This document shows positions 4,860 through 57,340 of a DNA stretch of 59,430 nucleotides, piece after piece. The DNA is from an uncultured Pirellulaceae bacterium (GTDB lineage Bacteria; Planctomycetota; Planctomycetia; Pirellulales; Pirellulaceae). The position numbers and the translations under genes are program-made. The notes under the pieces were generated by a model. That model searched no databases, had not been told where the DNA came from, and saw only the letters and a list, made by a program, of their open reading frames with translations. Position 1 is the first letter of the stretch; each line of letters opens with the position of its first letter. Location of the stretch: the NCBI GenBank assembly GCA_938036435.1, contig CALHPU010000154.1, forward strand, positions 1 to 59,430, given 5' to 3'.

Positions 4860-4956
4860 CAAGGGAAGACTTCAACAATCCCGAAAAGCGTTTGTTGAAG
4901 TTGATTCAATGCAAGCCCGACGCGCGAGTTTTGAAGTTGCACAAATACTAGCCCGA

Positions 4957-5179
4957 CGCGCGAGCGAGCGGATATTTCCGAGGATTTCCGGATTCCTTGC
5001 TTGCGCATCGGGCTTGTATTAAAACGCTTTGCGATCTCAAAACAGCGAGCATTTTGTCTAATAGAATGTGTACTTTGCTCTCAAATGTGCAACTTCAAAA
5101 CGCGCGAGCGAGTGGATATTTCCGAGGGTTTCCGGATTCCTTGCTTGCGCATCGGGCTTGTATTGAAACGCTTTGCGAT
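4957..5179. repeat. Two direct copies of a ~79-bp dispersed repeat
   Basis: Copy one is 4957-5035 and copy two is 5101-5179. They are nearly identical, differing by a few substitutions. Both contain CGCGCGAGCGAG, GATTTCCGGATTCC..., GCATCGGGCTTGTATT and ACGCTTTGCGAT. The segment between them (about 5036-5100), together with part of copy one, reappears on the other strand at 29663-29760. No gene is supported in 4860-5230. Confidence 0.85.
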
Positions 5180-47586: not shown

Positions 47587-47660
<74 letters not shown>

Positions 47661-47705: not shown

Positions 47706-47904
47706 GTAAATTTTGTCAAGAAGCATGTTGTGCACCGAACCCGTGCAAACCCTTCGACCACATGGCACGTAGCTTGAAACAGTGAGGTCAACCTTTTCCG
47801 GATCCGCCTACGCGCAAGAACGCAAGCAACTGCCGACCCTCCCGCCGGGCAGGGGCGGAGGCGGGCCGACGGCGAGGACCAAACACCGAACCCAAACAAA
47901 CAGT

Positions 47905-48005
47905 ACAAGCCCGAAGCGCGAGTGAGGAATAACAAACAGTACAAGCCCGAAGCGCGAGCGAGGAATAACAAACAGTACAAGCCCGAAGCGCGAGCGAGGA
48001 ATAAC
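47905..48005. repeat. Three tandem copies of a 36-bp unit
   Basis: Copies at 47905-47940, 47941-47976 and 47977-48005 (incomplete), with unit ACAAGCCCGAAGCGCGAGCG plus AGGAATAACAAACAGT. Part of another unit precedes them. The unit's first half is the same core found at 49770-49786 and 50004-50020. There are no spacers, so it is not a CRISPR array. Confidence 0.9.
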
Positions 48006-48291: not shown

Positions 48292-49749
48292 ATGAAACCC
48301 TCCTACCAAAACTCAACAGCGTTGCTCGCTCTGACCTTCGCGCTAACTTTGCTGTCGATCGGCTGTGAACAAAAGGTGCCTCAGCGATTGAACGTAACGA
48401 CGCCGGCGCAACCAGTCGCACGCGTGCGACCGTGTAACGTCCTGTTGATCGGGCTTGATTCTTTGGCCGCCCCCATGAAACGCCAATGGGCGGCTCGACA
48501 CGAAACGCCGCTGACGATCACTCAAGTCAGCAAATCTGAGTTTGAAGAATCAAAGATGCAGGTGGCCAACGACATCAATGCGTTAGTCTATCCGTCGGAC
48601 ATGATGGTCGAACTGATCGACAACAAGAAGATTGACCCGCTGGAAAGCGTCTTTTACGACAGCGATGAATTCAACAAGTTCTCTTTACTAAAGCACTACC
48701 GCAAAACAGGAATTCGATTCGACGGGAAACCTTTCGCTGCCGCCTGTGGCGGTCCACTGTTCGTCCAAATCTATCGTGCGGACCAATTGGCGGCAGTCGG
48801 CCAGTCTGTTCCCGCGACTTGGCAGCAGCTGATCAAAACGCAAAAAGCTCTCGCCAGCCCTGAAGCAGAGGACTCCGCTGCCACATCAATCGCCATTCCC
48901 TTGGGCGAATCTTGGGCAGCGGCATCTTATCTGGCTGTCAGCAGTCCGTACGTTCGGCAATTCGGTAGCTTGTCGGTGCTGTTCGATCGCAAGACGATGA
49001 AACCAATGTTGGAGTCGGCCGGCTTTGTCCGCGCTCTAGATGAACTGAAAGAATTGATCGCAGCCAATCCGCAATCGTTAGAGATGGATCCAGCTGCGGT
49101 TTACGCCGCGTTACGATCCGGGCAGGCCGCGATAGGTCTCACTTGGCCTCAAACCGACGCGGCAAGCGCCGGCGAGGCAGAATTGGTCTCTCAAAAAGTG
49201 CTAGACGAATTGCGAGTTGCATCGGTTCCCGGCACAGATGATTTTTTTGACTCTAACGACCGGCGGTGGATCAGGCGCGAGTCGGGCCAGAGTGTGACGG
49301 TTAACTTCCACAACATGCCGGGGGTGATGGTCAGTAGCAGACGCTCGCGCGGCCGCAAACAGGCAGCCGAGCAGTTTATCGCTTGGCTGACCGAGCCGGG
49401 CATCGGCGAGATTCTGTTCGGTCGAGATCAACGTTCAGGCCCTTTTCGGGCGACGCATCTTGCGAAACTGGAATCATGGGGAGATCCACAAGCCACCACT
49501 GAGTTTCGTGAGTCGTGGTCGGAGGTGTTGCGTCAGGCCCACGACCAACCGCTGATCATGATCTTTCCCAAGATTGCTCGATCAAGCCAGTATTTGGATT
49601 TGCTCGATAAAGGAATTCGCAAATGCCTGCTGGAGGATTTGCCTTCCCAAGATTCATTGGCCGAGATCAGTCAGCAGTGGGAGACGTTGACCGAATCGAT
49701 TGGTCGTCAAAAGCAATTGAGATTGCTGGAACGGAACGAGAGTTTTTAG
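48292..49749 (+). CDS. Extracellular solute-binding lipoprotein (family 1-like)
   Basis: 485 residues. Lipoprotein signal with lipobox LSIGC (about residue 23-25). The body has the two-lobe pattern of family 1 (sugar/oligosaccharide) binding proteins: VANDINALVYPSDMMVELI, FAAACGGPLFVQIYRADQL, AVYAALRSGQAAIGLTWP and AAEQFIAWLTEPGIGEILF. Such proteins hand substrate to an ABC importer or act as sensors. No permease or ATPase gene is adjacent, so the partner is unknown. It lies downstream of the 36-bp repeats and is followed by another repeat-rich spacer. Confidence 0.85.
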   Translation: MKPSYQNSTALLALTFALTLLSIGCEQKVPQRLNVTTPAQPVARVRPCNVLLIGLDSLAAPMKRQWAARHETPLTITQVSKSEFEESKMQVANDINALVYPSDMMVELIDNKKIDPLESVFYDSDEFNKFSLLKHYRKTGIRFDGKPFAAACGGPLFVQIYRADQLAAVGQSVPATWQQLIKTQKALASPEAEDSAATSIAIPLGESWAAASYLAVSSPYVRQFGSLSVLFDRKTMKPMLESAGFVRALDELKELIAANPQSLEMDPAAVYAALRSGQAAIGLTWPQTDAASAGEAELVSQKVLDELRVASVPGTDDFFDSNDRRWIRRESGQSVTVNFHNMPGVMVSSRRSRGRKQAAEQFIAWLTEPGIGEILFGRDQRSGPFRATHLAKLESWGDPQATTEFRESWSEVLRQAHDQPLIMIFPKIARSSQYLDLLDKGIRKCLLEDLPSQDSLAEISQQWETLTESIGRQKQLRLLERNESF

Positions 49750-49769
49750 ATTCTTGAAGTTGCCCTATT

Positions 49770-49975
49770 ACAAGCCCGAAGCGCGATAGGATTTTGCATC
49801 AATTTACTACGCCGTTGGTAGTACCGCCTTAAGGCGGAATTGTAGACTTCCGGCTTACGCCGGTACTACGAACGACTTACAGTCCTCAATGCAAAATCCT
49901 AGCGAGCGAGTGAACATTGGCAGACTTTCCAATCTCTTGCGAGATCAGATACGAGAGCCTTCGATTTTCTAACCC
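49770..49975. repeat. Dispersed repeat, copy A, interrupted by a small element
   Basis: Pieces 49770-49786 (ACAAGCCCGAAGCGCGA) and 49906-49975 join to form one copy of the repeat that is intact at 50004-50091. They share ACTTTCCAATCTCTTGCGAG and GAGAGCCTTCGATTTTCTAA. A 115-bp element plus a 4-base duplication splits copy A. Confidence 0.85.
49787..49901. mobile_element. 115-bp MITE-like element with terminal inverted repeats
   Basis: TAGGATTTTGCAT at the left end and its exact complement ATGCAAAATCCTA at the right end form 13-bp terminal inverted repeats. The inside holds further palindromes (CCGCCTTAAGGCGG and CCGGCTTACGCCGG) flanked by GTAGTACCG and CGGTACTAC. It is bordered by GCGA on both sides (49783-49786 and 49902-49905), and removing the element and one GCGA restores the intact repeat seen at 50004. 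It encodes no protein. Confidence 0.88.
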
Positions 49976-50003
49976 GCCGTGAGATTTCTTTAGTTGCGCT
50001 ACT

Positions 50004-50091
50004 ACAAGCCCGAAGCGCGAGCGAGTGAATATTGGCAGACTTTCCAATCTCTTGCGAGATCGGCTACGAGAGCCTTCGATTTTCTAACCCG
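50004..50091. repeat. Dispersed repeat, copy B (uninterrupted)
   Basis: Contains ACAAGCCCGAAGCGCGAGCG, the ACTTTCCAATCTCTTGCGAG core and GAGAGCCTTCGATTTTCTAA. It is the undamaged reference for copy A. Confidence 0.85.
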
Positions 50092-50226
50092 ACGCGTTAG
50101 CGAGGCGCGGTCCCAGACTTTTATAGCATGAGAAAAAAGCCAAGTTCGTTTAAGGACTCTTTTCGATGCGACTATTTATTTGCCGCAAACTTTTGGTTAG
50201 AATGCTGCTTCGACCAAAAGTCGAGC

Positions 50227-50270
50227 GGGCCAGTAGCTCAGTTGGTTAGAGCAGGGGACTCATAATCTCT
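50227..50270 (+). pseudogene. 5' half of a CAU tRNA (truncated)
   Basis: GGGCCAG, then TAGCTCAGTTGGTTAGAGC, and an anticodon arm with CAT at 50261-50263 form positions 1 to about 43 of a tRNA. After the anticodon stem the sequence leaves the tRNA pattern, and no T-arm or matching 3' acceptor strand is found. It lies 106 bp before an intact CAU tRNA of similar sequence. Confidence 0.8.
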
Positions 50271-50375
50271 ATGGCAAATCAAGATATGCGGTTTTTACAG
50301 GGTTTTAAACGGAAAACAATTCTATAAAATACACAGATCACACGGATTCGTAACGATTTAGTACGGATTTAGTAC

Positions 50376-50449
50376 GGGGCTGTAGCTCAGTTGGTTAGAG
50401 CAGGAAACTCATAATTTCTTTGTCGCGGGTTCGAGTCCTGCCAGCCCTA
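50376..50449 (+). tRNA. tRNA with anticodon CAU (elongator Met, or Ile2)
   Basis: 74 bases, complete cloverleaf: acceptor GGGGCTG with CAGCCCT (one G-U at 1-72), D-arm, anticodon CAT at 50410-50412, T-arm with GGGTTCGAGTCC. CCA is not encoded. The anticodon stem is A/T-rich (GGAAA with TTTCT). Met and lysidine-modified Ile2 tRNAs share this anticodon, and the sequence alone does not settle which this is. Confidence 0.92.
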
Positions 50450-50749
50450 TTTGATTCGATCAGATTGAAGTGCGGTGTTTAGAAACTTAGCGCCCGCTTG
50501 AAATTTTCTTTGATGAGTGTCGGAACCCGGGCGGCCAGTTTGATTGGTGTCGCTTTTGAAATCACTGACAGGGGTAGCTCGTACATTCAGCAGTGTAATT
50601 CGCCGTTCACTACATCAAGAACAGCTCGGGTGGTGTCGAAACCAACGGTTTGCGGTCGACCAAAAAGGGCGAACCACAAACCGGGGCCGGCACAGACGCT
50701 CGCGATCTTGACTCCGTGACGTGCGGCTCATTGGTTTTAGAATGTACAA
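50450..50749. other. Gene-poor stretch after the tRNA
   Basis: About 300 bp. On the minus strand a frame containing one stop reads LWFALFGRPQTVGFDTTRAV and, after the stop, ATPIKLAARVPTLIKENFKR (ending near 50479). That hints at a decayed coding sequence, but I cannot name it. No RNA gene or clear promoter is seen. Confidence 0.3.
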
Positions 50750-50768
50750 GACTACCCATACGGTAGTC
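50750..50768. promoter_or_regulatory. 19-bp palindrome at the head of the accessory genes
   Basis: GACTACC and GGTAGTC flank CATAC. It lies about 35 bp before the first possible start codon of the accessory region and just upstream of the TTTTTATCATTT motif, so it is a candidate operator. Confidence 0.5.
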
Positions 50769-50803
50769 GAAGTGCATTTTTATCATTTCCCCATTCTTCC
50801 ATT

Positions 50804-51040
50804 ATGGGTACTCTTTCAGGACCAGCCGCACCTGCGAACAACGTGGCTCACATCACCGGCAAACCATTCCTAGGATTCAGGAATCGAACGCTCAGCGTTC
50901 GGTTGTTCTTTCAAGAACGCCACAAGGGCGAAGCGTGTTCCGAACGTGCCTATCAACGGTCGTTACTCCAGAAGGCCCAATTGCTAACACAAACACTGAC
51001 TCGATTGCGAACTTCCATCGAGTCAGTGAGATATGAGTAG
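50804..51040 (+). CDS. Doubtful small protein in the accessory region
   Basis: 78 codons. The leader (TTTTTATCATTTCCCC, then CATTCTTCCATT before ATG) resembles the one at 51730-51756. The product has no recognised motif; the second half is Arg/Gln-rich and helical. There is no Shine-Dalgarno sequence, as for its neighbours. Included because of the shared leader; coding status is uncertain. Confidence 0.3.
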   Translation: MGTLSGPAAPANNVAHITGKPFLGFRNRTLSVRLFFQERHKGEACSERAYQRSLLQKAQLLTQTLTRLRTSIESVRYE

Positions 51041-51122
51041 GCCAGCTACTCCCCTCTCTCGTTCGAGGCTTCGGTTTACCCCCTTGCCTCGGACACTTCT
51101 TATAATTTTCTCCAATTTTATC

Positions 51123-51416
51123 ATGTGTTTTAACTCAACCGCAAATAGTTCTTCGCTCAAAGCAGATTTTGAGGCGGGGCAGCTCAACGAACAGGAAACG
51201 ATCGAGTTCTTTCAAGAGCTAATCGACTCCGGCCTTGCTTGGACGATGCCGGGCAGCTACGGGCGCACCGCTATGGCGATGATTCGTAGTGGCAAGTGCC
51301 TTCTCGGCACAGAGGGACATCAGGATGCCTATGGCAACTATGTTCCTAGCCGTAACGAAGTCCAGCCAGGAACGCCGGGCTCGCAGGCGTTCGTTCTCAA
51401 CAGCCTTGCAAGCTAA
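51123..51416 (+). CDS. Small phage-like protein (DUF7417-like)
   Basis: 97 residues, soluble. The block ETIEFFQELIDSGLAW followed by GSYGRTAMAMIRSGKCL is a pattern I associate with small proteins of phages and plasmids (DUF7417-like) with no known function. The upstream extension of the frame is not used, because its residues look non-coding and the pyrimidine-rich leader (ATTTTCTCCAATTTTATC) resembles those of neighbouring genes. There is no Shine-Dalgarno sequence. A strong terminator follows. Confidence 0.75.
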   Translation: MCFNSTANSSSLKADFEAGQLNEQETIEFFQELIDSGLAWTMPGSYGRTAMAMIRSGKCLLGTEGHQDAYGNYVPSRNEVQPGTPGSQAFVLNSLAS

Positions 51417-51427
51417 GTGCACTCTCC

Positions 51428-51460
51428 CCCACTCCGACAATCATCGGAGTGGGTTTTATT
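51428..51460 (+). terminator. Rho-independent terminator
   Basis: CCCACTCCGA (51428-51437) pairs perfectly with TCGGAGTGGG (51444-51453), loop CAATCA, followed by TTTTATTTTATT. Confidence 0.93.
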
Positions 51461-51479
51461 TTATTCCCTTTAAACGTAT

Positions 51480-51716
51480 ATGAATTCAAAAGAGAACAGA
51501 AAGGCAGACAACAAATATAAGTTTCGTATCTTTGCTAGAGCTAGTGACTACTTGGTCGCCGACATTTGGGCTCGTGATGAAGAAGAGGCAAATCGAATCG
51601 CACCCGAACATGACGGCGGCGACTATCGAACTGTGGCTGGCTCTTGGCAGATCGAAGAGATTCGCAAGGTAACAGAAGAAGATTTAGCCTTCGAAAGTTT
51701 TCAGCCACTCAATTAG
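51480..51716 (+). CDS. Small hypothetical protein
   Basis: 78 residues, charged and soluble. KYKFRIFARASDYLVADIWARDEEEANRIA suggests a small alpha/beta fold with a strand-strand-helix order. The end is acidic. I recognise no family. The start follows the terminator by 20 bases with no Shine-Dalgarno sequence (TTCCCTTTAAACGTAT before ATG), so the transcript may be leaderless or the start may need an unusual signal. It is followed 40 bp later by the next accessory gene. Confidence 0.65.
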   Translation: MNSKENRKADNKYKFRIFARASDYLVADIWARDEEEANRIAPEHDGGDYRTVAGSWQIEEIRKVTEEDLAFESFQPLN

Positions 51717-51756
51717 CAGGCAAGACGCAAATTTTTATCATTTACAATCCAAACTT

Positions 51757-52227
51757 ATGGGACAATATTTCAAAGCTATTAACCTCGACAAGCGCGAAGT
51801 CGTTTGTCCATGGTGCCTGAACGGAGGTGCCAAACTCTGGGAGTGGACGGCAAATCGCCAAGGAGCCATCTTCACATTGCTGCTACGACAAAGCAGTGCA
51901 ACGGGTGGTGGCGACTATGGCGGCCCAGAGCCACAAATGATCGAGCTGACTAGCGACAATGCCGCTGAGACTCTCAACGAACTAATGGCGAAAGGGCTCG
52001 CACGAGAGGGAATGGATATGCCAATCCCCTCTTCCTCCGTGGTGGGTCGTTGGGCAGGTGACCGGGTGGCATTGGTCGGCGACTATGACGCTTCTGGACT
52101 TTACAAACAAGCCAAGTCATTCACAAACATTAGTGAACAATTGGTCGAAGAGTGGAACCGGTTTATCGGTGACAATGTGAACCTTCAGCTGACATACAAT
52201 CCATGCAGTTGCACTGATAGCGAATAA
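51757..52227 (+). CDS. Conserved phage/plasmid-type protein of unknown function
   Basis: 156 residues. MGQYFKAINLDKREVVCPWC and GGAKLWEWTANRQGAIFTLL, with GRWAGDRVALVGDYD further on, match a small protein found scattered among bacterial mobile elements, whose function is not known to me. Four cysteines in two groups (VCPWC and NPCSC) could bind a metal. The leader contains TTTTTATCATTT and lacks a Shine-Dalgarno sequence. A terminator follows. Confidence 0.8.
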   Translation: MGQYFKAINLDKREVVCPWCLNGGAKLWEWTANRQGAIFTLLLRQSSATGGGDYGGPEPQMIELTSDNAAETLNELMAKGLAREGMDMPIPSSSVVGRWAGDRVALVGDYDASGLYKQAKSFTNISEQLVEEWNRFIGDNVNLQLTYNPCSCTDSE

Positions 52228-52245
52228 ACCAACCACCATTAACGG

Positions 52246-52290
52246 CAATCCCGTAGTCCCCTCCTCGGTGGCTTCGGGATTTTTTTATGC
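52246..52290 (+). terminator. Rho-independent terminator
   Basis: AATCCCG (52247-52253) pairs with CGGGATT (52275-52281), followed by seven T. The 21-base loop is long, but further inner pairing (CCC with GGTGG) shortens it. After it, 52291-52817 shows no supported gene; TGCCGT and ACGGCA form a short inverted repeat near 52620-52645. Confidence 0.8.
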
Positions 52291-52817
52291 TCGCTGGTGT
52301 CTGATATTGACGCTGAAACTTTACCAACGGCGTCAAACAACCAACTTCGGTTGGTCTTTGCCTTTAGCTGATTTCCATCTGTCAATTCCACATCGGCGTG
52401 TCTGGTTGAGCGCGTCAAAACGGCAAGAGAAATGCCGAGTACACGAGCAAGCATTTGCCTTGCTTATGTCGCGCTACAACCGTGTCCCCTTCTCCATTTT
52501 GGATTTAAAAGCCAATAAGTTATGCACGCTCGTTTACAGAGGTCTTCTAGTCATCGTCACGCTATTGACACGCGTATTGTGACTCGCCATTAGCATAGCG
52601 AGCTAGACCATGGTGACGTGCCGTTGATATTGTGCACGGCATCGTCGTGTAGGTGTAACGATCAAGCCGTGACATTTGAGCGAGCAAATTTTGTGTTCAT
52701 TCAGCAGAAAGCCTGCAATAGACGCGTACACAACATGCCATAGGGCTTGGCAAGTCGTTTTGCTTTTAGCCGAGTTCACTTTGCGCTAAACTGAGCACGC
52801 TCATACTCCCCTTACCT

Positions 52818-53399
52818 ATGACCGAACAATTCTTGAGTCTCAAAGAGGCTGCTGAACATACCGGAAAGTCTCGAAGCTCACTTCGTCGATTCGTCGAGAA
52901 AATCACAAAGACAACAGACCATACTGATCGAAACCTGATTCAGCCCGATGTCGATGAAGTTGCACGGCTCCATTCCGAGAGCCATCCTTTTTCTTGGCGG
53001 GTAAGCGCAACCCTGTTGGATCGTGAATTTGCGAAGCAGGGGACTAGCTCAAGCGAGACAGGTGGCAATCAGAAGCAAAGTAGTTCCGCAAACGAGGAAC
53101 TTTTAAGCCAAGCAATCGGAATGCTAAAAACAGAACTAGAAGCAAAGAACAAACAAATCGCCGAATTTCAAGAACGGCAACGCGAAACCAACGTCTTGTT
53201 ACAACAAACTACTGAGAAGCTAATGCTTCTTACCGATGGACAAAAGAAACCTTCAAAAGGCGACGAAGCAGTAACAGTTTTCTCAAATCAAAATGCAGAG
53301 CAGGGGATTCCACCAAAGCCGAAAGACGACGAAGCATCCTCGAAGCCCAAACGCGAATCACTCTGGGACAAAATGCGAAAACCACTTTTCCAACGCTAG
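52818..53399 (+). CDS. HTH and coiled-coil protein upstream of the replication gene
   Basis: 193 residues. N-terminal helix-turn-helix (FLSLKEAAEHTGKSRSSLRRF, about 5-25) of the MerR/excisionase-like or Rep-associated type. A Ser/Gln-rich linker follows, then a coiled coil (about 95-140, LKTELEAKNKQIAEFQERQ) and a polar tail. The layout resembles small plasmid or phage DNA-binding proteins that accompany replication initiators. Its stop codon touches the next start (TAG at 53397-53399 followed by ATG), so the pair is translationally coupled. The leader is pyrimidine-rich without a Shine-Dalgarno sequence. Confidence 0.75.
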   Translation: MTEQFLSLKEAAEHTGKSRSSLRRFVEKITKTTDHTDRNLIQPDVDEVARLHSESHPFSWRVSATLLDREFAKQGTSSSETGGNQKQSSSANEELLSQAIGMLKTELEAKNKQIAEFQERQRETNVLLQQTTEKLMLLTDGQKKPSKGDEAVTVFSNQNAEQGIPPKPKDDEASSKPKRESLWDKMRKPLFQR

Positions 53400-54992
53400 A
53401 TGATAGCTCGTGCCGATAACCAAAGGGCAATTACGTCAACAGACAAGACACACGCAAGCGGTGAGAAGGGGAGTCAGCCCTTTCTTGGTTTTGAGCCTCT
53501 CAATTCAAACTACGTCTACTGCCCAAATCAGTTTCTAGACATCTGCTTGAAGAGCAATTCGCGTGGCATGGTTCGTAGCGTAGCATTTATCTTGCGCCAA
53601 ACGCTTGGCTGGTTGGATGCCAACGGACAACCAATCAATCAAACCGTTCGTGTTCCATACACTCGCTTAATCAATGAGGCGGGGGTAAGCGAACGAGCGA
53701 TCCCGAAAGCAATCAGCCTCGCTTTAGCAAGTGGATTTATCCACTGCGATGTTAGTCCAACGCCTGACCGGAAGGAGCAGGCCGGAGCAGCCGGCGAATA
53801 TACTTTGAAGTGGGACCAATCGGGAATGCACACAAAGTCATTTTCTGACTTCGATGGGTTTTACATTGGCGAGGGGCATCGCAGCCCAATCCCGAACTCT
53901 TTTTTTGATATTGTGATACCTAACGAAACCCTTTCTGTAACCAAAGTTGTTGGAGCGATTCTTCGTCATACGATCGGATACGAAAATCAGTTTGGTGGCC
54001 GACGAATGTCTCACCCTCTTAGTTGCACCTCGCTCCAGAATTACACCGGCCTCAGTGACCGCAAAACAGTAGTCTCGGCGATTCGACACGCGGTTGATGC
54101 GGGCTATATAGAACGCATCCAAGAAGGCCAGTTTCATCCAAATAAGAACGTTCAAACGGCAGCTGTTTACGGCGTTAAATGGCTTGCAAAAACAAATGTT
54201 CATGCAACCACCGCAAAAACCCCAACAGTAAACAACGACGGCAATAATCCCACCAGCACCACCGCAAGAACCCCAACAGCCAACCACCGCAAGAACCCCA
54301 ACAGTATAGAAACAACAAAACTAAAAGACACTTTGAAACAACAAGCTGCTGTAAATCAAGATTCAATCATTCAGCAACGGCTAGTAGCTGAAGGCTTTGA
54401 GCCTGCTGCTGCAGTTAAACTTATCGAAAAGAGGGGACTCGATATCGCTTCTCGCCAGCTGGATTGGCTCGACGAACGCAAGCCAAAGAACCGTTTGGCT
54501 ATGTTGCGAAAAGCAATCGAAGAAGACTGGGCTGAGTCAACAACGTTTCAGGCGAAAAAGAAAATCGCTGAAGCTCGCAAACGAGATGCTGCAAAAGCGA
54601 TTGCGAAGCAAGTTGAAGACAGATTTATTGAAGAACGAAAGCAACAACGCCAAGATCGAAAGCAAAGACTGATGACAGAATGGGGAATTGCGAGCGATGC
54701 CGAGCGTGCCAATTGGATCGCCTCAGCGGTCGCTCGAGAATCATCGACGGCCATACGAAAAATTCTGGCAAAACTAGAACCACAAACTGAAAAGCCGCAC
54801 GTTCAAGTGCTTGATGAAATTGCGTTTGAGAGGGGACTAGAGCCTGTAACTTTGATACGCAACATTGACGAACCAACATCGGTTGCAGAGCAACCTCGGC
54901 AATCTAAACTTGCGCCTAGTTCACGTTTACAAATCCCAATTCGGAATTCCCCACCAAAAGAAAAAATGCCGACTGAATTGGCGTCATTTTGA
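53400..54992 (+). CDS. Replication-initiator-like protein with duplicated winged-helix domain
   Basis: 530 residues. Two similar winged-helix units follow one another: about 41-118 (PNQFLDICL, FILRQTLGW, RLINEAGVSERAIPKAISLAL) and about 164-240 (PNSFFDIVI, ILRHTIGYE, LQNYTGLSDRKTVVSAIRHAV). Each resembles the N-terminal DNA-binding part of lambda O/phage replication proteins. Then come a Thr/Pro/Asn linker (269-301) encoded by the iteron-like repeats, and a long basic, Gln/Arg-rich helical part (310-470). I infer that it binds its own gene and starts replication of a phage- or plasmid-type element. No helicase loader follows. The start at 53400 is fixed by coupling to the upstream stop. Confidence 0.75.
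   Translation: MIARADNQRAITSTDKTHASGEKGSQPFLGFEPLNSNYVYCPNQFLDICLKSNSRGMVRSVAFILRQTLGWLDANGQPINQTVRVPYTRLINEAGVSERAIPKAISLALASGFIHCDVSPTPDRKEQAGAAGEYTLKWDQSGMHTKSFSDFDGFYIGEGHRSPIPNSFFDIVIPNETLSVTKVVGAILRHTIGYENQFGGRRMSHPLSCTSLQNYTGLSDRKTVVSAIRHAVDAGYIERIQEGQFHPNKNVQTAAVYGVKWLAKTNVHATTAKTPTVNNDGNNPTSTTARTPTANHRKNPNSIETTKLKDTLKQQAAVNQDSIIQQRLVAEGFEPAAAVKLIEKRGLDIASRQLDWLDERKPKNRLAMLRKAIEEDWAESTTFQAKKKIAEARKRDAAKAIAKQVEDRFIEERKQQRQDRKQRLMTEWGIASDAERANWIASAVARESSTAIRKILAKLEPQTEKPHVQVLDEIAFERGLEPVTLIRNIDEPTSVAEQPRQSKLAPSSRLQIPIRNSPPKEKMPTELASF
54205..54304 (+). repeat. Four tandem 24-bp iteron-like repeats inside the replication gene
   Basis: Units at 54205-54228, 54233-54256, 54256-54279 and 54281-54304. 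Consensus core ACCGCAAGAACCCCAACAG; the second unit is the most diverged (about 19 of 24 matches). Unit 4 is read in a different codon frame from units 1 and 3 (NHRKNPNS against STTARTPTA), so the conservation is at the DNA level. An A-rich stretch follows (54305-54345, GAAACAACAAAACTAAAAGA). Confidence 0.8.
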
Positions 54993-55013
54993 TGTGCACA
55001 GAGTGACTGTTAA

Positions 55014-55286
55014 TTGACCTTTGATCAGGTCGTCTAAAAGGTCAACCAACAGGTCGATGCAATCGAACCTGTCCACCGCTTGGCACAGCCAAGAAGCCCC
55101 ACGATGAGGGCGGAGGCGTCGCTAGTACTGAACGTACGCGACCCGGGCGGATCCGACGGCGCTTAGGAAAGCTTGCGGCCCGCCCGGGTCGCGTACTTCG
55201 TTCCCCTTCGGTCACTGCATCCTGCGACGCCCCGCCGCACACCTCTCTCCATGGCGGAGCCGCCCTACCCGCTGGCGAAGCCAGCG
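55014..55286. repeat. Cluster of strong hairpins after the replication gene
   Basis: TTGACCTTT/AAAGGTCAA (55014-55022 and 55037-55045). A perfect 17-bp inverted repeat GTACGCGACCCGGGCGG (55134-55150 and 55180-55196) lies within an outer pair GGCGTCGC/GCGACGCC (55115-55122 and 55224-55231). CGCTGGC/GCCAGCG with loop GAA is at 55270-55286. The zone is much richer in G+C than the genes before it and holds no supported gene. Confidence 0.75.
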
Positions 55287-55289
55287 TCC

Positions 55290-55874
55290 GCTCAAGTCAG
55301 CCCTACACTTCGCAATCGCGTCAGACAATGTGACAAAAGCATTGTCGAAATAATTCGGTCTCGGTCACCGAAGCAGTTTACGGACTTGAGGAGTGAATGT
55401 CTTGGGCATTAGTTTGCGGGAAGAGCCCAAAATCAAGGCTTGGTATTAATTCACAAGTTTAGAAGCGAATCACAATCTTCAAGGAAGATCGCTTCAGTCG
55501 GTAGGTAGCATCGTCCAAAGCTCGGGCCGTCCGACATTACAATGCACCGACCTCGACAAGAACCCCATACAAGCCCACGAAAAAAACAACGTCGTTCGGG
55601 CGACGTTCCACGCGTAAACGCCCGTTATTGGCTCTGCGAAATCACGCTTGGAGGCAAAAAAGAAGCTTGTTGTCGAGAGTCTAAGTTTACTTTGGTGAAA
55701 GAAAACATTACGTAACAAATGCCCAAAAGCCGAGTCACCCCCCCCAAACTGTAATTTCCTTGTTGTTCAATCTGGCGATCACGCGGTTGGAACAATAGCG
55801 GATCCAAAATCTTCATAATCGAGATGCTTTGCAAAGCTCCGACCTACAACGACAGAACAGGGAATCAAAACAAA
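55290..55874. other. Gene-free stretch before the dps remnant
   Basis: About 585 bp. Open frames here have unlikely composition and no ribosome-binding sites. A short C run (CCCCCCC, 55738-55744) and a promoter region for the dps remnant are all that can be mentioned. Confidence 0.4.
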
Positions 55875-56018
55875 ATGAATGATCTCGTGAAAGCAATGCG
55901 AATGGTTGTTGCTGATACTTACGCCATCATCGGACAAACGCATCTTTGCCATTGGAACGTGAGAGGGAATTCCTTCTTCTCATTGCATCAGGCATTTGAA
56001 GAACAGTACACTGATTAA
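55875..56018 (+). pseudogene. 3'-truncated dps (DNA-protecting ferritin-like) gene
   Basis: 47 residues read as the start of a Dps protein: MNDLVKAMRMVVADTYAIIG, then QTHLCHWNVRGNSFFSLHQAFEEQY. The motif THxxHWNVxGxxFxxLHxxFExQY holds the first ferroxidase ligands. The frame then stops at TAA (56016-56018), where normal Dps proteins continue for another hundred residues. The rest is absent downstream, so the gene was cut by a deletion or insertion at this junction. Confidence 0.85.
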
Positions 56019-56069
56019 CTGCTTTGCGGGCAAGAAGTCAGCCAGCTAAGTTGGTTCACGAAACCAATA

Positions 56070-56103
56070 AAAAACCGACCTGAAATAAATTTCCAGGCCG
56101 GTC
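56070..56103 (-). terminator. Minus-strand terminator
   Basis: On the minus strand ACCGGCCTG and CAGGTCGGT form a 9-bp stem with one G-T pair, loop of 11 bases, then TTTTTATT. No gene ends just before it, apart from the short ssrA-like 3' end at 56108-56123, so it is probably an orphan terminator. Confidence 0.85.
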
Positions 56104-56123
56104 TAAGTGGAGGCGGCGGGGAC
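56104..56123 (-). pseudogene. Possible 3' end of ssrA (tmRNA) or a tRNA, attachment-site remnant
   Basis: On the minus strand TCCCCGCCGCCTCCAC matches the 3' acceptor/T-arm end typical of tmRNA genes (CCCGCCGCCTCCA), and the orphan terminator follows directly. The rest of the RNA is not found in 56124-56332. Integrative elements often leave such 3' fragments. The match is short, so this is tentative. Confidence 0.35.
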
Positions 56124-56332
56124 GGAAAAATTGAACGTCTCATCGTCGATAAGAAGCACGGCTTTTCATGGCTGAATCGCGTTTCACAAGAAATTGAAAA
56201 TCGGTCGAAAGGGTACAAAATCAGACACGCTTTCAGACAAATCAGACAGCCAACAAACTCGGCACTAAGAAAAGTTAAGTCAAATGTTCGACTGTCGTTG
56301 AGAAACGGATGTCGAACGTCTCAATAGCGAGC
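56124..56332. other. Spacer between ssrA-like fragment and the ATP-grasp operon
   Basis: About 210 bp with no supported gene. It contains near-repeats AATCAGACACGCTTTCAGAC / AAATCAGACAGCC (56219-56253) and GTTCGACTGTCG / GGATGTCGAACG. It may be the tail of a lost mobile-element gene. Confidence 0.35.
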
Positions 56333-57340
56333 TCACCTATTCGAGTCCACTAATTCTTGGCAAATACTTTCAGCGAAATCAAAACTGGCAAACTGGTTGG
56401 CGTCGAATAGGCCACCTGTGCTGAAGACGTTGAACTCGATGACTTTAGTGCCCATCAAGTCGATGCCGACCAGAGTGATTCCGTTTTCAAAAAGGATTGA
56501 GGCAGCCGTCAGAGCCGCTTCGCGCTGTGCGCCCGAAAGTGACAGCGGTTGAGCCGTTCCGCCCGCGTGAAGGTTGGCGCGAAAATCGCCGTCGGCGGGA
56601 ATTCTATGAATGCCAGCAAAGTGCCCGTTGTGCTGCAGCAGTTTGCCGCCTGAAACAACCACCCGTTTGTCGCCCGGTTCCGTTGTTTCGATGAACTCTT
56701 GGACGACAATGCTCTGATCGCCAAAGCGCTTGGCCAATTCTTCCTCAAGCCGGTCGGTGACTGAGCCAATGCGGATCACATTGTTGCCACGTGAGCCCAG
56801 TACGGGTTTGATCACGCATGCGCGACCAAAATCTTTGACAAACGCGACGGCTTCATCGTATTTCTGCGTCACCAACATTTGCGGACGATATGGTTGTGGT
56901 AACAGAGCGATCGCGGCCTTGCTGGCGAAGAAAGCCAAACTCACCGGATCGTTAACGACGCGGATGCCAAGCGCCTTGGCGATCTGACATAGCTCCAGAA
57001 ACAGATTGTGCTTGCCGCGGTTCTCGAGGTCGCGTCCCGGATTGGTCCGGATCAAAATCAAATCATCTGGGCCGATTGCCAATTGACGGAATGAGTCGCT
57101 GGTAACGGACTTTGTAAATTGTGCGACAACAGCGGAATCGGCGTCCGTCGGTATTTCCAATTGAATGGCAGCGGCTCGTAACTGCATTGGCGACTTGGCG
57201 CTAGACCCATCGAGCGAAATTCCATCGACATCGCACAGCCAAACTTTGTGGCCTTGACGGTGGAATGCGGCAATCAACCAAGCCGTCGTCTGTCGAGCCC
57301 CGATCTCTTGCACGCGATTGACGAAAACGAAGACACGCAT
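56333..57340 (-). CDS. GshB/RimK-type ATP-grasp ligase
   Basis: 335 residues. An N-terminal pre-ATP-grasp domain (MRVFVFVNRVQEIGARQT...) is followed by an ATP-grasp fold with the glutathione-synthetase pattern: VIKPVLGSRGNNVIRI, IVVQEFI, DKRVVVSGGKLL, DFRANLHAGGTA, and the metal-binding end IDLMGTKVIEFNVFSTGGL. These enzymes join an amino acid or carboxylate to an amine using ATP. The substrate is unknown; true GshB has NVTSP where this has NVFSTGG. Last gene of the operon, three bases after the metallohydrolase gene. Confidence 0.85.
   Translation of the reverse strand: MRVFVFVNRVQEIGARQTTAWLIAAFHRQGHKVWLCDVDGISLDGSSAKSPMQLRAAAIQLEIPTDADSAVVAQFTKSVTSDSFRQLAIGPDDLILIRTNPGRDLENRGKHNLFLELCQIAKALGIRVVNDPVSLAFFASKAAIALLPQPYRPQMLVTQKYDEAVAFVKDFGRACVIKPVLGSRGNNVIRIGSVTDRLEEELAKRFGDQSIVVQEFIETTEPGDKRVVVSGGKLLQHNGHFAGIHRIPADGDFRANLHAGGTAQPLSLSGAQREAALTAASILFENGITLVGIDLMGTKVIEFNVFSTGGLFDANQFASFDFAESICQELVDSNR

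Follow-up and report, generated by a model that had tools for sequence, protein, structure and literature searches.

The rep gene and its predicted product

The window, that is, the whole 59,430-nucleotide stretch of planctomycete DNA analysed here, carries on its forward strand a gene, rep (53400..54992), that encodes a putative replication initiator. It is a genuine open reading frame of 530 codons, whose ATG lies right behind the TAG of an upstream ORF (52818..53399, forward strand) coding for a weakly HTH/excisionase-like protein with relatives at the equivalent place in seven other loci of 20. The Rep protein comprises two tandem winged-helix domains (WH1, residues ~36-140, and WH2, ~158-262), a linker (262-318) and a helical C-terminal domain. 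Two winged-helix units had been proposed in the original prediction, and this was borne out: WH1 and WH2 matched each other in a profile-profile comparison with hhalign (probability 99.5, E-value 1.3e-22), and an AlphaFold2 model of modest confidence, built with five sequences (mean pLDDT 59.8), displayed two winged-helix folds followed by a helical C-terminal part. By their profiles, the two domains are a duplication. The linker, which is encoded by the iterons described below, is disordered in the model (pLDDT <50).

The window protein matched phrog_18020, annotated as 'replication initiation O-like', with an E-value of 3e-6. This family was matched by all eight members searched (A1) and phrog_678 by two of the eight, and the lambda O protein matches both; direct hhalign comparison with lambda O was weak (probability 1.6). 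Pfam searches with the window protein (E-values up to 1) and eight members (up to 0.1) returned a weak match to HTH_36 (pfam13730), below the cut-off of that family, and otherwise chance-level families; Phage_rep_O, RepA_N (PF06970) and Rep_3 (PF01051) were all absent from these matches, and the C-terminal domain had no significant Pfam match. Searching solved structures by sequence gave two chance-like matches and nothing else. When the model was submitted to Foldseek, RepE54 bound to iteron DNA (7soz_C) ranked fourth, behind three unrelated chains (probability 0.98, TMt 0.53, E-value 0.051), a fold match to be taken as a lead since no PDB match attains an E-value of 0.001. The predicted viral proteins matched by fold included replication initiators (best E-value 3.2e-4) and one named lambda GpO N-terminal (E-value 1.3e-3).

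Four iterons inside the coding sequence

The part of rep encoding the linker contains four iterons, all on the forward strand: iteron 1 (54208..54228, core CAAAAACCCC, codon phase 1), iteron 2 (54236..54256, core CAATAATCCC, phase 2), iteron 3 (54259..54279, core CAAGAACCCC, phase 1) and iteron 4 (54284..54304, core CAAGAACCCC, phase 2). The last two are identical at 21/21 positions, the best value for 21-mers elsewhere in the gene being 14/21. Tandem Repeats Finder (TRF) reports an array at 54204-54304 (score 108), with units starting at 54204, 54232, 54255 and 54280. Four tandem repeats of 24 bp had been announced at 54205-54304; the number of units stands, but 24 bp is merely an average, the spacings being 28, 23 and 25. 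The fourth unit is indeed read in another codon frame than units 1 and 3, and unit 2 shares its phase. No strong dyad symmetry was detected in the last unit of the six genes inspected among 28 (8/20 in the window, 8/12 in L002 and 6/10 in four others, scores that cover these six units and not those of lambda).

Homologs of rep are scattered. The genome of the window holds a single copy, and matches were found in 3 of 60 relatives (this genome included), in 8 of 241 genomes of the family (three weak), in 9 of 392 genomes sampled across the phylum (three weak) and in 17 of 170 genomes of another family, with an overlap of five between these and the phylum sample; some genomes have two or more. 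This patchy distribution and the multiple copies fit a mobile element. A search of genome contigs gave four loci, from MAGs labeled Planctomycetaceae or Planctomyces. The plasmid collection contained nothing similar to the window protein or to L040, and one weak partial match to L042 (18% of the query), while viral contigs gave no match with a single sequence and one with an alignment. The analysed set consisted of 28 genes: 26 from the window's phylum, ON073792 (L008) and one viral contig (L009). Fragments of at most 300 codons (L085-L088, L091-L093, L095 and the second piece of L097) and weak partial matches (L015-L018, L024-L026, L030) were omitted from the iteron analysis.

In 24 of the 26 planctomycete genes the repeats occupy the matching place, with units 25 and 48 nt ahead of the last one, i.e. 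spacings of 23 and 25, so that units alternate between two codon frames. This count includes both L003 and its near duplicate L089, as well as L037, whose units are weak (13 and 14 identities out of 21, the chance maximum in that gene being 14); the core of L080 was placed one base off for the spacing count, and its corrected start was used in the null test below. The exceptions are L040, which does not have the 25 spacing, and L039, a broken gene in which a single unit remains. Beyond these, L009 has spacings of 33, 33 and 25, L008 has seven irregular units and L043 has six. The first spacing of four-unit genes is 25, 28, 31, 37 or 40, each a multiple of three plus one. Of 20 genes submitted to TRF, 17 gave a linker array (all but L008, L037 and L039); a motif scan recovered units in L008 and L037 too, and the one remaining in L039. 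L040 and L045 also possess 13-base direct repeats 3' of the iterons.

Selection on the DNA rather than on the peptide

Two-frame reading means that one DNA word encodes two different peptides, as in L002, where it is alternately translated as FKNPTS and GSKTRP. We compared units within and between genes for 15 of 20 genes (omitting L008, L009, L037, L039 and L040, and taking the last four of the six units of L043). Between units of one gene read in different frames, identity is 0.825; when a given unit is compared across genes without a change of frame, it drops to 0.656, and the within-gene value was the higher in 15/15 genes. The letters of the units change jointly across frames within a gene. 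We then resampled synonymous codons with the peptide held fixed, according to the codon usage of each gene, for 22 of the 28 genes (L008, L009, L037, L039, L040 and L089 omitted, here and in the distance correlation below). The observed cross-frame identity averaged 0.79 versus 0.43 under the null, with p<=0.003 in 22/22 genes, the tests not being independent because the genes are related. The codon phases of the last unit, the previous one and the one before are 2, 1, 2 in all 22.

The original prediction held that selection appears to act on the DNA and not on the peptide, and proposed as a check that the repeats should outlast changes in the residues they encode. They do (0.825 vs 0.656, the layout in 24/26 genes, the null rejected in 22/22), and the cross-frame identity, the spacing and the peptide-fixed null all agree with the claim. 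Repeat conservation, two-frame phasing and selection at the DNA level are direct observations on these genes.

Iteron letters vary with the winged helices

Across the same 22 genes, the distance between iterons correlates with that between WH1 domains (0.51) and WH2 domains (0.59) and hardly with that between C-terminal domains (0.14); the partial Mantel test given the C-terminal domain returned a p-value of 0.0005. This covariation is likewise directly observed. The recognition helix of WH1 usually reads S-R-G-x-I, with variants SKGAI (L034), SNGAI (L042) and SRSAV (L009). It is altered from SRG to S[ET]R in three genes, namely the window gene (S-E-R-A-I), L038 (S-T-R-S-I) and L083 (S-T-R-A-I), and these are the only ones among 27 (L039 omitted) with a G immediately 5' of the CAA core in the last iteron, a G carried by all four units of each. 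On the tree built without WH1, the nearest gene to the window is L006, with SRGAI and GGTTCAA, and L038 and L083 sit on a separate branch. The pattern, spotted after looking, concerns three genes on two branches and suggests that WH1 would contact the left half of the iteron.

An A-rich stretch and a conserved box downstream of the iterons

Immediately behind iteron 4 lies an A-rich stretch (54305..54360, forward strand), the proposed unwinding region, which contains a AAACAACA box. Such a stretch had been noted, and in the window gene the 50 nt of lowest GC (0.30) do begin 15 nt past the last iteron core. Among 27 genes (L039 omitted) the lowest-GC 50 nt begin between -12 and +53 of the last core in 24/27, a range chosen post hoc, the exceptions being L037, L096 and L009; with a pre-set range of 5-45 nt past the core, the lowest-GC window fell there in 7/27 genes, and a window among the lowest 2% in 25/27. 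In many genes the lowest-GC window begins at -2 and thus covers the last iteron. An A+T-rich neighbor of the iterons is in this sense observed directly.

The AAACAACA box, or one of its near forms (AAACAGCA, AAAGAACA), is found 43 or 46 nt past the last core in 25/27 genes, and the window gene has an extra copy at +20. The peptide that the box specifies, Lys-Gln-Gln, is conserved, so that peptide and DNA are inseparable by position alone; the codons are nevertheless biased, the first Gln being written CAA in 21/22 cases where this residue is Gln, compared with 340/828 Gln codons overall in 24 genes. With its fixed distance and biased codons, the box is a possible additional site for a protein within the origin.

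Genomic context of rep

The window copy is integrated after a tRNA-Met gene (50376..50449, forward strand), which stands at the left of an island that is homologous, in five pieces from 50596 to 55286, to an element of another genome (G025). Besides rep and the ORF that abuts it, the island contains two accessory genes on the forward strand, one (51757..52227) with a relative in L004, another element of the rep family, and one (51033..51416) matching DUF7417 and phrog_3908, a phage-borne family with no assigned function. Just ahead of the full tRNA-Met, at 50227-50305, there is a partial 5' tRNA-Met copy (23 bp exact), and another tRNA-Met lies at 47587. No integrase was detected among the five island ORFs scanned, nor any direct repeat of at least 10 bp between 50351-50800 and 55201-56400 that could mark att sites; copies of tRNA ends, sought in the window, L044 and L034, came down to the partial copy in the window, and a DNA search of 28 genomes of the genus (its own included) gave no pair of flanks readable as an empty site. 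The G025 island, located after a tRNA-Arg, has a tyrosine integrase gene ~8 kb downstream of rep, beyond a transposase-like ORF (read by eye). Elsewhere in the window, tandem repeats of 36-bp period with similar units (ACAAGCCCGA-GCGCGAG-like) occur at 47895-48005 and 4895-4964, and a 147-bp direct duplication (95% matches) at 1047-1343.

Downstream of rep, a conserved, structured non-coding segment (55016..55280) with a perfect 17-bp inverted repeat is a possible second cis element. Blastn recovered it in 8 of 20 loci (the window, L044, L002, L003, L004, L033, L034 and L043), with ~70-86% identity over some 40-290 bp between pairs of loci, and in a diverged form in four more (L035, L036, L037, L039). 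The consensus fold of the eight sequences has 27 pairs, 8 of them compensatory, with a slightly unfavorable overall covariation term, and in an Rfam scan of 49400-56400 tRNA alone scored above the gathering threshold. This segment may represent an RNA or a hairpin site in the DNA.

Among the 20 loci, the small gene right upstream of rep is of three types (HTH-like in eight, another type in eight, RHH in three). ParA and ParB genes follow rep in three loci (L008, L040, L045), dnaB lies directly downstream in two (L032, which is the L005 contig, and L041) and Replic_Relax-type genes occur in four, Pfam-tested in L043 alone, which also has a coupling-protein-like ATPase. The order RHH-rep-parA-parB was observed on two circular molecules. 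One is contig G476:C38, a probable circular plasmid of 56.8 kb given the 141-bp exact overlap of its ends; such an overlap was absent in five other contigs examined and likewise in L002 and L043. The other, ON073792, is circular by its record, which names no virion gene among 36 annotated features. In neither of these two molecules did GC skew single out the iterons (block-shuffle p 0.08 in both). ON073792.1 (L008, L075) is filed as 'Aphanizomenon phage Yong-DA' and, besides RHH-rep-parA-parB, carries polysaccharide genes and a dockerin protein; two further records of equal length bear other names. ON073792.1 has the look of a plasmid filed as a phage, whose host is perhaps a planctomycete-like associate. 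A mobile context is directly observed in relatives, whose rep genes occur in islands, next to dnaB or transfer-like genes, or on a contig that is probably a circular plasmid, and the lack of any such association, which would have spoken against the original prediction, was not encountered.

Comparison with known embedded origins

In lambda, iterons and an A+T-rich tract lie in the middle of the O gene, according to the portion consulted of PMC7466680. We located four iterons in lambda O, in codon phases 0, 2, 2 and 1 and with spacings of 20, 24 and 23. The planctomycete rep genes resemble this arrangement in having four mid-gene iterons in several codon phases followed by an A-rich region, and in a remote winged-helix homology through phrog_18020 and phrog_678. 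They differ by the tandem duplication of the winged helix, by iterons that do not show a strong dyad, with 23/25 spacing and alternating phase, and by their presence on plasmid-like and integrated elements; moreover, unlike in lambda, no coding gene is seen directly 3' of rep in the window, although two relatives have dnaB there. The description of the gene as lambda-O-like is accordingly upheld as remote homology via phrog_18020, but Pfam returned no Phage_rep_O match, the direct profile match is weak (1.6), and the duplication and the dyad-poor iterons set it apart.

A second parallel is the RepA_N initiator of pSK41, for which the consulted part of PMC5703833 describes four Rep boxes placed centrally in the gene, where they code for a linker that initiator function does not require, together with a winged-HTH N-terminus; in the same text the N-terminus of the pPR9 hybrid is assigned to pfam13730 (HTH_36), and the rolling-circle pT181 family is reported to have its origin within rep as well. 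The central position of the boxes (here repeats, which we infer to be origin boxes) and the winged-HTH N-terminus recall pSK41, and HTH_36, here a weak match, recalls pPR9, whereas the planctomycete proteins differ from pSK41 RepA_N by the lack of a Pfam match to RepA_N, the two winged helices and a C-terminal domain devoid of significant Pfam matches. Plasmid pBMB165 was considered as a further precedent and dropped, its iterons being placed in a non-coding region in the part seen of PMC1626470. An origin inside the initiator gene is therefore a layout already known from phage lambda and from some staphylococcal plasmids.

Two tandem winged helices may be a trait in common with the Rep_3 family; Pfam gave no Rep_3 match here, and the Foldseek match to RepE54 has an E-value of 0.051. 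Rep_3 initiators (F RepE, R6K pi, pPS10 RepA) have two tandem winged-helix domains and bind asymmetric iterons of ~22 bp, which lie outside the gene. In the open-access PMC library we found no paper combining 'Planctomycetes' with 'iterons'; as far as our searches of open-access papers go, what is new is the family itself, together with its phylum, its duplicated winged helix and the strictness of its two-frame phasing.

A candidate origin within its own initiator gene

The sequence evidence leads us to predict, with considerable confidence, that 53400-54992 encodes the Rep protein of a mobile element and harbors the origin inside its own gene; the best reading of the protein is a putative lambda-O superfamily initiator whose winged helix has been duplicated. 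Rep binding, melting, helicase loading and origin use are inferred, origin function being deduced from anatomy and precedent. Rep would be made along with the abutting upstream protein and would bind the four asymmetric iterons via its tandem pair of winged helices. WH1 would probably contact the left half, where the letters change in step with its recognition helix. The resulting complex would then melt the A-rich stretch just downstream of the iterons, where the replicative helicase would be loaded. As the iterons encode a disordered linker, a strong constraint on the DNA can come at little cost for the protein.

Among other explanations, Rep might bind the repeats in a control role (incompatibility, copy number or autorepression) while the origin lies elsewhere, for example in the downstream structured segment. 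Control roles are common for iterons, and segment 55016-55280 does offer an alternative cis element; we nevertheless regard this as unlikely: 24/27 genes have their A+T-rich stretch at the last iteron or beyond it, the AAACAACA box keeps a fixed distance, lambda and pSK41 are precedents for an origin at such a place, and the downstream segment is present in 8/20 loci (plus four diverged) against nearly universal iterons. Still less probable, and by a wide step, is a centromere-like or regulatory site for a partner of Rep such as ParB, RHH or the upstream HTH protein: RHH, ParA and ParB genes do neighbor rep in 3/20 loci, but the iterons persist in the 17/20 without a ParB of that cluster beside rep and with all three types of upstream small gene, and their letters track the winged helices of Rep. 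That the repeats merely reflect the encoded peptide or a neutral tandem duplication would suit a linker predicted to be disordered, yet it is hardly credible when the two-frame reading is kept in 24/26 genes, the peptide-fixed null is rejected in 22/22 and the unit letters shift together across frames; peptide-level repetition and neutral slippage were ruled out on the cross-frame identity, the phasing and the null.

A different issue, compatible with an origin embedded in rep, is whether the copy in the window, as a remnant that has been domesticated or is decaying, no longer replicates, in a family that is still a replicon. We give this a little less than an even chance. It is favored by the single copy in the genome, the absence of an integrase among the scanned island ORFs and of a detectable att repeat; it is disfavored by the two ORFs, both open, by the intact four iterons and A-rich stretch, and by the similar island of G025, which adjoins a different tRNA and has an integrase gene further along. 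The window copy may thus be inactive, and the idea of a self-contained replicon, put forward in the original prediction, fits the relatives on circular molecules better than this integrated copy with no integrase in the ORFs scanned.

Returning to the embedded origin, a broader proposal, which we advance tentatively and consider somewhat more likely to fail than to hold, is that these genes form a distinct class of initiators of planctomycete plasmids and integrated elements, with a tandem O-superfamily winged helix, one polypeptide per asymmetric iteron, an embedded origin, a near-invariant two-frame 23/25-bp phasing needed by the nucleoprotein complex, and a second structured cis element behind the gene. 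More than 20 natural variants are available in which the sites and the DNA-binding domains vary together, so that the protein-DNA code and the phasing rule are directly testable. The family offers a clean natural case of predicted DNA binding sites conserved within a gene in two codon frames, and provides planctomycetes with a defined candidate replicon, useful for vectors.
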